A stretch of 64,000 bases of DNA from Desulfobacteraceae bacterium (GTDB lineage Bacteria > Desulfobacterota > Desulfobacteria > Desulfobacterales > RPRI01): NCBI GenBank assembly GCA_011391695.1, contig JAABQB010000004.1, positions 1 through 64,000 of the forward strand, given 5' to 3'. This document shows, piece after piece, positions 9,525-58,705 of the stretch; the stretch's first letter is position 1, and every line of letters starts with the position of its first letter. Under the pieces are notes generated by a model, which saw only the letters and a program-made list of their open reading frames with translations, did no database searches and was not told where the DNA came from. Both the position numbers and the translations under genes were made by a program.

Positions 9525-10688
9525 ATGGCATTAGAATTTGCTGCAAAGGCTTCCTGCCAGGAATACTTCGGGAAAGCCCATGAAATGGTCCGCCGCTCCG
9601 TAAAGGAATTCGTCGGCAAGGAAATTATCCCTTTTATAGAGGAATGGGAAGAGGAATGCGAATTTCCGCGCTCCCTTTACAAAAAAGCTGCGGAAGTCGG
9701 AATACTTGGAACAGGGTATCCCGAGGAACTGGGAGGAACACCCGGAGACATATTTTTCCAGATAGCCGTCTGGGAAGAACTTATGCGTTCCGGTTCAGGA
9801 GGACTTGTTGCCGGGCTCGGCTCCCTTAATATTGCCATACCTCCCATAGTGAGATCCGGGACCGAAGAGCAGAAAAAGAAATTTGTAAAACCCGTCCTTG
9901 CAGGAGAGAAAATCGCCGCCCTTGCCATCACTGAACCCGAGGGAGGCTCCGATGTCGCAAATATCAGGACAACTGCGGTAAAGGATGGCAATAATTATAT
10001 TGTTAACGGGAGCAAGACTTTTATAACAAGCGGATGCAGGGCCGACCAGATAACATGCGCCGTAAGAACCGGTGAAAACGGGGCTCACGGAATAAGTCTT
10101 CTTATTATTGAATCGAAAACTCCCGGCTATTCGGTCTCAAACAAGCTGAAAAAAACAGGATGGTGGGCTTCCGACACCGCGCAGATATTTTTTGATGACT
10201 GCCGGGTCCCGGTTGAAAATCTTATCGGTAAAGAAAACGAGGGCTTTTACGGCATTATGGAAAATTTTCAGACTGAAAGGCTCCAGCTTTCCATAATGGC
10301 CAATATAACATCACAGTTGGCCCTTGAAGAATCCTTAAAATATGCTAAAAAGAGAGAAGCCTTCGGCCGTCCCATAAAAGGTTTTCAGGTAATACGCCAC
10401 AAGCTTGTCGAAATGGCTACCCTCGTTGAAGTGAGCCGGGAATTCACATACCGCGTAGCCGCTAAAATCGATTCCGGGGCAAACCAGATAAAAGAAATTT
10501 CAATGGCCAAGAATTTTGCCACAAGCGTCAGCGACAGAGTCACATATGAGGCCGTACAGATATTCGGGGGCTACGGATTCATGCGTGGTTATCTAGTTGA
10601 AAGGCTCTTCCGCGATAACAGGATACTCTCTATAGGCGGAGGAACAACAGAAATAATGAAGGAGATCATCTCCAAATTCATAATATAA
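9525..10688 (+). CDS. acyl-CoA dehydrogenase
   Basis: This full-length enzyme of 387 residues follows the MaoC gene by 8 bases, with GAGGTAAG as ribosome binding site. It carries the LAITEPEGGSD loop, the SKTFITSG strand, the FAD-contacting KREAFGRPIKGFQ and a QIFGGYGFMRGY motif. The C-terminal motif is IGGGTTEIM, lacking the Glu of the YEGT type. TERLQLS supplies a Glu at the alternative catalytic position, as in isovaleryl-CoA dehydrogenase. It probably introduces the double bond that the MaoC enzyme hydrates. Branched-chain or bulky substrates are suggested only by the context. Confidence 0.95.
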   Translation: MALEFAAKASCQEYFGKAHEMVRRSVKEFVGKEIIPFIEEWEEECEFPRSLYKKAAEVGILGTGYPEELGGTPGDIFFQIAVWEELMRSGSGGLVAGLGSLNIAIPPIVRSGTEEQKKKFVKPVLAGEKIAALAITEPEGGSDVANIRTTAVKDGNNYIVNGSKTFITSGCRADQITCAVRTGENGAHGISLLIIESKTPGYSVSNKLKKTGWWASDTAQIFFDDCRVPVENLIGKENEGFYGIMENFQTERLQLSIMANITSQLALEESLKYAKKREAFGRPIKGFQVIRHKLVEMATLVEVSREFTYRVAAKIDSGANQIKEISMAKNFATSVSDRVTYEAVQIFGGYGFMRGYLVERLFRDNRILSIGGGTTEIMKEIISKFII

Positions 10689-10715
10689 TGAATTTGTAAT
10701 AAATATGAATCTTTT

Positions 10716-10823
10716 TTTCACACGAAGGCACAAAGGCACGAAGAAAGGCCTGTTGAAAATATTCAGAGTTTTCTTTGTGTCCTCCGTGGTCTTTGTGTGA
10801 GAACGACTTTTTACAAGTCCGTC
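10716..10823. repeat. intergenic palindrome (CACAAAG type) with TTTTTACAAGTCCGTC end
   Basis: TCACACGAAGGCACAAAGG on the left is answered by CTTTGTGTCC and CTTTGTGTGAGAACG on the right. The element ends in ACTTTTTACAAGTCCGTCA, which resembles the terminal inverted repeat of the element at 58552-58705. The repeat abuts the ribosome binding site of the next gene. Confidence 0.75.
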
Positions 10824-10847
10824 AAACTTAAAAGAAAGGGAAACCGT

Positions 10848-25580: not shown

Positions 25581-25703
25581 TAACAAAGAATAAAATGCAA
25601 TCGTAGCTCCAGAAAACGGATTTGTTTGATATGATGAAAAAATGTTGTCACATTGATATTGTTTTGATACAAGCTTTATAGTTAAATTGTGGCTATATTA
25701 TAA

Positions 25704-25819
25704 ATGATGGACTCGTAAGTCCATCATCAGGCCGAGGGCGAGTAAGCCCCGGCCTGGGGTGTGGGTGGAACCGCTTGAATTTACTTCAAGCGGCGGAAGA
25801 GAGTAATCCCTTTCCCGCC
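25704..25819 (+). ncRNA. candidate structured RNA or repeat element: four consecutive hairpins
   Basis: Four stems follow one another. ATGATGGACT pairs with AGTCCATCAT (25704-25727, loop CGTA). CAGGCCG/GGGC pairs with GCCC/CGGCCTG with one bulged A (25728-25756, loop GAGTAA). CCGCTTGAA pairs with TTCAAGCGG (25771-25793). GGCGG pairs with CCGCC (25792-25819), sharing two bases with the third stem. GTAA or its complement recurs in each loop. No ORF of note covers it. It may be a regulatory RNA, a leader of the ETF-QO gene or a mobile palindromic repeat. Confidence 0.5.
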
Positions 25820-25844
25820 AAGTAAAAAGTCATTTTCTGACTTA

Positions 25845-25950
25845 CAACGAAGTCAATTTTTAGACCAGGCGTAATTATCTAATATTCTTTTAATAATGTT
25901 AATTATACCTGGTTTTGACTTCGTTGCCTATAGGATGCCGTTCGCGGCAT
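25845..25950. repeat. large imperfect palindrome followed by a TTCG hairpin
   Basis: CAACGAAGTCAA (25845-25856) and ACCAGGCGTAATTA (25864-25877) are mirrored by TAATTATACCTGGT (25900-25913) and TTGACTTCGTTG (25915-25926). Next comes ATGCCG-TTCG-CGGCAT (25935-25950), a perfect stem with a stable tetraloop. Together with the preceding four hairpins this fills most of the gap before 26015. Confidence 0.7.
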
Positions 25951-26014
25951 AAAATTGCTTTTTACGAAAGTATCAATAAATGACATAGGATGAAAAATAT
26001 AAAGGTGAGGACAG

Positions 26015-27682
26015 ATGGATATTGTGAGAGAAAAAATTGATTTTGACGTGCTTTTTGTGGGAGGAGGCCCGGCAAGCTTGGCCGGAGCTATCAGGCTAAT
26101 GCAGCTTGCAAAGGAAAAAAATATCAACCTTGAGGTTGCCCTTATTGAGAAAGGAGCAGAAATAGGTGCTCATGCCTTAAGCGGAGCTGTTTTAAACCCA
26201 ATTGCTTTAAGGGAGCTTATCCCCGATTATCCTGAAAAGGGATGTCCCATCGAAACGGTCGTAAGGGACGATGAATTCATATACCTTACAAAAAACTCTT
26301 TTTTTCGTGTTCCTTTGATACCCAGATACATGCACAATAAAGGTTTTTTTGTAATCAGCCTTTCCAAATTTACAAAATGGCTGGGTGAAATTGCCCTGGA
26401 AATGGGCGTAAACATATTTCCTGGATTTGCAGGAAAAGAAGTATTATATGCCGCAAATGATAAGAATGTAGAAGGCATTCGAACAGGAGATAAAGGCCTT
26501 GGAAAAGACGGCACTCCGAAAAGCAACTTTGAGCCCGGAATAGATCTGATGGCAAAAATTACCGTCTTCGGGGAAGGTGCAAGAGGAAGCCTTGTGCAGG
26601 ATATCGCAAAAAAGCTCGACATCTTTTCAGACAAAATGCCCCAGGTTTTTGAAATCGGGATCAAGGAAGTAATACAGCTGCCTGAAAATAATTATTTTTC
26701 TTCAAGTAAAGGGAACGATATCCATACCCTCGGTTATCCTCTTGACTTTGACACACCAGGCGGCGGATTCATATACGAGATGAAGGATAACAAGGTGGCT
26801 ATCGGTTTTCTTGCGGGACTCTGCTATGAAGACCCCATGTTCGACATATATGACGAATTCATAAGGTTCAAAAGCCATCCCTTTGTAGCCGGAATAATAA
26901 AAGATGGAAAAGTTCTGCAGCAGGGAGCCCGCACAGTCTCAACCGGCGGATATTATACCATGCCCAAGCTGTACGCGAACGGCGCCCTTTTTGTGGGAGG
27001 CTGCGCAGCTATTCAGAACACACCGGCCTTAAAAGGAATACATGCTTCGATGAAATCCGGCATGCTGGCCGCTGAGGCAATTATAAGCGCCTTTGAGGAA
27101 AACAGCTTCAATGCCGAGACATTGAGCATATACAAGACTCTTTTTGAAAAAAGCTGGCTCAATGAAGAAATGCTTGAAGGGAGAAATTTTGCCCAGGCAC
27201 TTGCCAAAAAAGGGATTACCAAATTCGTCCATATCGGGGCCCAGTATTTCACAAAAGGCCGGGGCATAAGAGACGGACTATCCACGGAAGATGACTGTAC
27301 TACGCTTAAGTATATAAAAGAATCAGGAGCCGATGCTGAAACAAAAAAGAAAGTCTTTGACGGGACATTGTATGTCGACAAGCTCACAGGAGTCTATCTC
27401 TCAAAGACAATGCACAGGGAAGACCAGCCCTGCCATATAATAGTCCACGACACCAATATATGTGTCAATGAATGTTATGAAAAATATCAGTCTCCATGCA
27501 CAAAATTCTGCCCCGGAAATGTTTATGAAATAGAAGTTGACGAAAAAACAATGAAACGACGGCTTAAACTGAATTTTTCAAACTGCCTCCACTGCAAGAC
27601 ATGCGATATAAAAGATCCTTACAGGAATATAAAGTGGACATGCCCGGAAGGCGGTGAGGGGCCGGGATATACGGTGGTATAA
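26015..27682 (+). CDS. electron transfer flavoprotein:quinone oxidoreductase
   Basis: This 555-residue protein matches ETF-QO over its length. It has an N-terminal FAD-binding VLFVGGGPASLAGA, the GAHALSGAVLNP segment and GGCAAIQNTPALKGIHASMK. A C-terminal ferredoxin-like domain has cysteines in NCLHCKTCDIKDP and a final WTCPEGG, the ligands of one [4Fe-4S] cluster. It accepts electrons from ETF reduced by acyl-CoA dehydrogenases and passes them to membrane quinone, so it is the sink for the many dehydrogenases in this window. ETF subunits are not in the window. The stop codon abuts that of the convergent UbiB-type gene. Confidence 0.96.
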   Translation: MDIVREKIDFDVLFVGGGPASLAGAIRLMQLAKEKNINLEVALIEKGAEIGAHALSGAVLNPIALRELIPDYPEKGCPIETVVRDDEFIYLTKNSFFRVPLIPRYMHNKGFFVISLSKFTKWLGEIALEMGVNIFPGFAGKEVLYAANDKNVEGIRTGDKGLGKDGTPKSNFEPGIDLMAKITVFGEGARGSLVQDIAKKLDIFSDKMPQVFEIGIKEVIQLPENNYFSSSKGNDIHTLGYPLDFDTPGGGFIYEMKDNKVAIGFLAGLCYEDPMFDIYDEFIRFKSHPFVAGIIKDGKVLQQGARTVSTGGYYTMPKLYANGALFVGGCAAIQNTPALKGIHASMKSGMLAAEAIISAFEENSFNAETLSIYKTLFEKSWLNEEMLEGRNFAQALAKKGITKFVHIGAQYFTKGRGIRDGLSTEDDCTTLKYIKESGADAETKKKVFDGTLYVDKLTGVYLSKTMHREDQPCHIIVHDTNICVNECYEKYQSPCTKFCPGNVYEIEVDEKTMKRRLKLNFSNCLHCKTCDIKDPYRNIKWTCPEGGEGPGYTVV

Positions 27683-31362: not shown

Positions 31363-31505
31363 TGATGGCTTTGTAAAAAGTCAGGATCTCACACCAAGCC
31401 ACAAAGATCGCAAAGTTAGCATTTTGATATTAAATGAATTTTTTCTTCGTGTTCTTAGTGCCTTTGTGAGAAAATATAGTTTTTATGAGTTTATCATTTT
31501 TAAGT
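31363..31505. repeat. palindromic element (CACAAAG type) with TTTGTAAAAAGTC ends
   Basis: The element opens TGATGGCTTTGTAAAAAGTCAGG followed by CTCACACCAAGCCACAAAG. It closes with GTGCCTTTGTGAGAAAATATAG and TTTTTATGAGTTTATCA, an imperfect inverted counterpart. It fills the middle of the 415-base gap between 31124 and 31538; the rest is A/T-rich with nothing recognised. Confidence 0.7.
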
Positions 31506-58526: not shown

Positions 58527-58551
58527 AGGTGCTTTCGGATTGATCAGGGTT

Positions 58552-58705
58552 GATGAACTCGTAAAAAGCAAAATTCGGACGGCAAAGTAAAAAGTTCAAG
58601 TTCAAGGCGTCGCGAATCTTGAGGAATGAGGCGTACATAAAAGTACGCCGCAATGACGAAAGATGAAGCGCAACGAAGAAATCGGACTTTTTACGAAGCC
58701 GTCAA
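58552..58705. mobile_element. MITE-like element with terminal inverted repeats
   Basis: The ends read TGATGAACTCGTAAAAAGC and, inverted, TGACGGCTTCGTAAAAAGTC, an imperfect terminal inverted repeat. The inside contains GGCAAAGTAAAAAGTTCAAG, an AAAGTACGCCGC/GCGTACATAAAAGTACGC palindrome and GCGCAACGAAG. No coding capacity. Partial relatives are at 38156-38195, 10796-10823 and 31363-31385. It lies between the deacetylase and protease genes. Confidence 0.65.

Follow-up and report, generated by a model that had tools for sequence, protein, structure and literature searches.

The window analysed here, a stretch of 64,000 nucleotides from a Desulfobacteraceae bacterium, contains an ETF-QO gene that is preceded by a dense array of hairpins. 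The array is placed between divergent genes, runs in the sense orientation to ETF-QO and lies 3' of a promoter-like block that is conserved in the genus (Table 1). A first-pass annotation, made from the sequence alone, described it as four consecutive stems followed by a long imperfect palindrome and a perfect hairpin with a UUCG loop, and considered a structured leader RNA, a small RNA or a mobile palindromic repeat as its possible nature. The four stems are indeed found in a row, and the region folds far beyond chance: the + strand of the 271 bases from 25690 to 25960 reaches −111.5 kcal/mol compared to a mean of −68.0 for shuffled sequences (z = −7.9), the − strand has a z of −11.1, and on either strand 0 of 200 shuffles fold as well. 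The palindrome of 82 bases is present with perfect arms of 12 nt, as is the cUUCGg hairpin, and two stems do compete for bases, as the extended stem 3 and stem 4 both lay claim to G25792 and G25793. A GTAA sequence had been placed in or near each loop, which is correct for loops 1, 2 and 4, while loop 3 has TTTAC. Neither the GTAA loops nor the UUCG loop are a conserved trait of the family, both being limited to the window copy or its closest relatives. A fifth small stem can be added to the original four, and the extent first given to the array, 25704 to 25950, cuts off the right terminal repeat of the true unit.

Table 1. Features of the element upstream of ETF-QO and of its surroundings in the window
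Feature	Position	Strand	Basis
Promoter-like site in genus-conserved block upstream of ETF-QO	25653..25682	+	agreement with the consensus only, with about 2 chance matches expected over the stretch
Target duplication, left copy, ATAAA	25700..25704		flank comparison; 4-5-bp duplications in 61% of 140 family members
Whole MITE, 271 bp	25705..25975	+	terminal repeats, duplication, empty sites
Left terminal repeat (TGATGGACTCGTAA...), self-folded as stem 1	25705..25726	+	repeat comparison, folding
Module A, covarying multi-hairpin interior	25705..25852	+	covariance model R1, 151 bits
Stem 1	25704..25727
Stem 2	25728..25756	+	folding, covariance alignment
Conserved GGGTGGAACC, unpaired in the module A consensus	25763..25772	+
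Stem 3, compensatory changes strongest here	25773..25791 (25771-25793 extended)	+
Stem 4, rival of extended stem 3	25792..25819	+
Stem 5, inner terminal-repeat hairpin at the module A/module B junction	25827..25843	+
Imperfect palindrome, 82 bases, module B	25845..25926	+
Hairpin ATGCCG-TTCG-CGGCAT at the right end of module B; loop not conserved	25935..25950	+
Right terminal repeat	25956..25975	-
Target duplication, right copy, ATAAA	25976..25980
ETF-QO gene, downstream	26015..27682	+	PF05187 and PF21162

The array upstream of ETF-QO is almost certainly one MITE, a transposon without a transposase of its own, and as such belongs to a known kind of element. It is shorter than 500 bp, has no coding capacity, and its inverted ends of about 20 bp, which recur at 58 sites in the genome, are flanked on both sides by the same target-site duplication. 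Copies are many and dispersed, and empty sites are present. The same ends also bound 1.9-kb IS1182-like insertion sequences in related genomes, with 4-5-bp duplications of the same type, which further identifies the element as a MITE. The mobile palindromic repeat among the three original proposals is thereby borne out, as the ends, the duplication, the empty site, the dispersed family and the matching transposase-bearing insertion sequence are all directly visible. A chimeric build can be seen as well.

The empty site was found by comparing ETF-QO orthologues within the genus. In G007, with an ETF-QO protein identity of 94%, as well as in G001 and G008, the element is absent and the sequence runs through (...GTGGCTATATTATAAAACAACC... 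in G007); the window sequence minus the element and minus one duplication aligns to all three. The closest relative, G004 (96%), has a 118-bp element at the same point (L243), with ends of the same kind, another interior and TAGA duplications. The insertion point shared by G004 and the window suggests a preferred target or hot spot, or else an exchange of the interior within an ancestral insertion. The window copy follows the promoter-like block and precedes the ETF-QO start codon, so that it probably belongs to the ETF-QO 5' untranslated leader. No terminator-like site was found between 25500 and 26060. An inverted-repeat block, TATAGTTAAATTGTGGCTATA at 25677-25699, is conserved upstream of ETF-QO across the genus and is possibly an operator at the ETF-QO promoter.

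A search of the window's own genome yielded about 20 strong partial copies, which make up two blocks, one matching 25705-25852 (module A) and the other approximately 25840-25975 (module B). Read out to their ends, these copies have a terminal inverted repeat in common, TGATGGACTCGTAAAAAGTC. With up to 3 mismatches allowed, the 21-base terminal repeat occurs at the 58 sites mentioned above compared to 0 for the reversed control, and at up to 594 sites in relatives. The genome with 594 copies, a 4.3-Mb draft of the same order (G027), has no IS1182-like transposase detectable at E 1e-30. An exact-pattern scan of public genomes for the terminal repeat gave, among the matches listed, mostly Desulfobacterota records. 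In the literature text that was searched, no match to the terminal-repeat sequence was found, nor was a publication joining MITE, Desulfobact*, transposase and inverted repeats.

Duplication statistics were derived from 140 end-bounded elements gathered from all loci. A matching 4-mer sits exactly at the ends in 76 of these (54%, versus 2.6% in shuffled pairings) and a matching 5-mer in 10 (7%, versus 0.9%), and there are almost no duplications at offsets other than the exact ends. In the 4-bp class, the flanking sequences reveal CA-ANNT-TG as the approximate preferred target, with A at −1 in 91% and T at +1 in 94%. The spacing of adjoining elements is exactly 4 nt in 15 cases and 5 nt in 3, and no other spacing between −8 and 30 was found. 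Insertion beside an existing duplication would give this pattern, since the junction sequence, ATCA-NNNN-TGAT, is a target of the same kind; it looks as though new elements favour junctions that older ones have created. Abutting same-ended elements can be seen at L022 (1004-1047), L132 (7733-7776), L206, L211 and other loci. Long inverted-repeat targets in the style of IS1272 were rejected, as the flanks are no more palindromic than shuffled pairs. The window itself holds further same-ended elements: one at 31364-31498 with another interior (CACAAAGATCGCAAAG...CTTTGTGAGAAAATATAG) and apparently TTTT on both flanks, one at 58551-58704 with an interior of the G004 type (TGATGAACTCGTAAAAAGC...GACTTTTTACGAAGCCGTCA), and a fourth, more decayed element at 10686-10824 with a CACGAAGGCACAAAGG interior.

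Two interior modules make up the window element, a chimera whose parts meet at the inner terminal-repeat hairpin, AAAAAGTC. Over its left 140 bp, as far as ...AAAAAGTCATTTTCTGACTT, the element agrees with module A of other copies, after which the usual right end of module A (TTTACGAAGGTATCA) is replaced by module B. Module A is joined to different right parts at the same AAAAAGTC in L316, L256 and L259, and the right-end block of module B follows various left parts in L010, L024, L026, L028, L029, L199, L312, L313 and L316, indicating that swaps of interior modules recur.

A candidate for the enzyme that moves these elements is found at L182, where two such ends 1.9 kb apart enclose a DDE transposase of 580 amino acids with PF13751, PF01609 and PF05598 domains. 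Related transposases occur in 22 of 194 genomes of the order; both ends are visible at 14 loci, 1.88-1.92 kb apart, with 4- or 5-bp duplications of the same kind in 8 of the 14. The best NCBIfam match is the IS1182 model, yet its scores of 152 and 164 bits are below the cut-off of 270, and the transposase is therefore called IS1182-like. The partner resembles the IS1182 family (e.g., IS1272, PMC5678879) in the domain content of the transposase, a length of about 1.9 kb and inverted ends. IS1272 replaces inverted repeats and makes no duplication (PMC5678879), whereas the elements described here leave duplications of 4-5 bp and their flanks are not long palindromes. Neither a match to the IS1182-like transposase nor any DDE_Tnp_1 (PF01609) transposase was found in the own genome, and since this is a draft of 116 contigs, a copy may have been lost or collapsed in the assembly. 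Another long pair of ends, at L199, is not a transposase source, as it encloses ordinary genes and no transposase. The MITE has probably been mobilised in trans by a transposase of the IS1182-like type.

Beyond its mobility, module A has properties that point to a role of its transcript. The first-pass annotation had proposed a covariance search in related genomes, and with a model built from 31 copies, module A was detected in 30 out of 389 genomes of the order, among them all 10 of the genus, nearly always at full length and with its ends. Covariation supports the module A fold among these related copies: a MAFFT alignment that was not fitted to the structure contains 43 cells with two-sided changes compared to 14.7 in shuffles, and in the 91-copy alignment, which was fitted to the structure, there are 271 compared to 62, spread over 43 of 49 pairs. 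Hairpin 3 reads CCGC..GCGG, CCAT..ATGG, CCAC..GTGG, CCGA..TCGG or CCATCCG..CGGATGG depending on the lineage, while GTGGAACC around its start is nearly fixed as the stems change. Among the 57 best copies, G-U outnumbers A-C by 43 to 11 in the interior helices compared to 18 to 15 in the two end-derived helices, an excess that becomes weaker (144 to 106) when decayed copies are added; because the copies are related, the covariation and wobble counts are not independent. The interior excess of G-U would be the mark of pairing in the + strand transcript. When the window and further copies were searched against Rfam, the element had no matches beyond chance.

The orientation of module A points in the same direction. 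Between co-directional genes, with open reading frames standing in for genes without annotation, 31 copies of module A are sense and 9 antisense (p = 7 × 10−4), and at other cut-offs the ratio ranges from 22:4 to 34:13. In contrast, the two large clusters with the same ends and other interiors have no such bias (8:8 and 10:13). One interior of the family thus carries three separate signs of selection on the sense-strand RNA, namely covariation, the excess of G-U and orientation. From these patterns, selection on module A at the RNA level appears probable, and an RNA-level role in cis likely. The novelty would lie in the RNA interior, which covaries, is strand-selected and has a conserved GGGUGGAACC strand, inside an element of a known kind.

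The same observations could be read as a plain MITE without any role as RNA, in which palindromes are kept by DNA processes, either template switching that perfects imperfect palindromes or cruciform-dependent transposition. Both strands fold strongly, repair of palindromes also yields two-sided changes, and some copies (L142, L277, L280) have new perfect palindromes inside their stems, all consistent with this notion. The bias in orientation would then come only from the loss of harmful antisense copies, in which the unpaired C-rich GGTTCCACCCTCACCCC of the reverse strand resembles a Rho entry site. However, palindrome repair does not predict that G-U exceeds A-C in the interior helices only, a fixed unpaired GTGGAACC between changing stems is not expected, and there is no reason why orientation should matter in module A only. 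We consider it rather unlikely that the element is nothing but a plain MITE, while part of the orientation bias may be the mere removal of harmful antisense copies. That the element is the source of a separate trans-acting small RNA is highly improbable. A small RNA would suit the strong fold, and MITE-derived small RNAs have been reported in Coxiella (PMC10969869), but the orientation bias of module A relative to neighbouring genes speaks for an effect in cis, the element does not include the + strand promoter-like site, and the region has no recognisable terminator; nothing that was found lends support to this part of the original annotation.

The structured leader RNA of the first-pass annotation survives in a different form. 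The element probably sits in the ETF-QO leader, and module A has the signs of RNA-level selection described above; a leader dedicated to ETF-QO is refuted by the empty sites in relatives and by the copies beside many unrelated genes. A gene-specific regulatory leader, such as a riboswitch or T-box, which the position before the start codon and ten conserved bases similar to the T-box core might have suggested, has hardly any probability left given the three empty sites, the other interior in G004 and the missing Rfam match. The GGGUGGAACC strand resembles the T-box core, AGGGUGGNACC. Unlike a T-box leader, module A has no Rfam match, no CCCU partner directly after the next hairpin and no terminator-like site, and assignment as a T-box was rejected on these grounds; the likeness serves as a lead only.

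A MITE whose module A most likely acts in cis as RNA is, taken as a whole, a likely explanation of the locus. An IS1182-like DDE transposase, supplied by a relative or formerly resident in the genome, would recognise the TGATNNNNTCGTAAAAAGTC ends in trans; the insertion sites would be AT-rich and CA-ANNT-TG-like, with 4 or 5 bp duplicated at each. The window copy would have landed in the ETF-QO leader, 3' of the promoter-like block and 5' of the ribosome-binding site. As part of whichever mRNA contains it, module A would then most likely serve as a cis-acting RNA. The sense transcript is predicted to form a row of hairpins around an exposed G-rich GGGUGGAACC strand, a fold that would let the element sit in leaders or between the genes of operons while downstream expression is not cut off, possibly in that Rho is kept away or a point of processing is set. 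In the antisense transcript, a C-rich stretch would be left unpaired and could attract Rho. A specific role of module A in anti-polarity or processing is a tentative proposal, and the broader notion that it is a mobile cis-acting RNA device, selected in the sense orientation for anti-polarity, processing or sensing and transposed into the leaders and operons of many Desulfobacterota genes, is held just as guardedly. Sensing would possibly involve the T-box-like GGGUGGAACC strand.

Related elements are known from other bacteria. Chunjie, a MITE of Geobacter uraniireducens of 178-235 bp, is similar to the window MITE in size, terminal inverted repeats and short target duplications, and has many intergenic copies of varying length, some within operons, with a stable predicted transcript structure (PMC10969869). 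Chunjie is likened here by description, and the interior covariation and strand-specific selection of module A set the present element apart, as we found no such claim in the review's account (PMC10969869). Correia, ERIC and BOX elements are likewise mobile palindromic repeats in mRNA, again likened by description. Transcripts carrying Correia and ERIC elements are processed by RNases, and the pneumococcal BOX elements are modular with a possible T-box motif (PMC10969869); the modular build and the mention of a T-box motif have parallels in the window MITE. The proposed RNA role therefore has precedents.

An odd array of hairpins thus becomes a recognised insertion with empty-site controls, belonging to a very abundant repeat family of the Desulfobacterota that is tied to a type of transposase. 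The family offers a test case for how a mobile repeat might become an RNA element, with one interior that has covariation, strand-specific wobble and a sense bias, and same-ended sister elements without orientation bias as the contrast for module A. If the proposed role is true, a single genome may have the same transposed RNA module in many of its operons.
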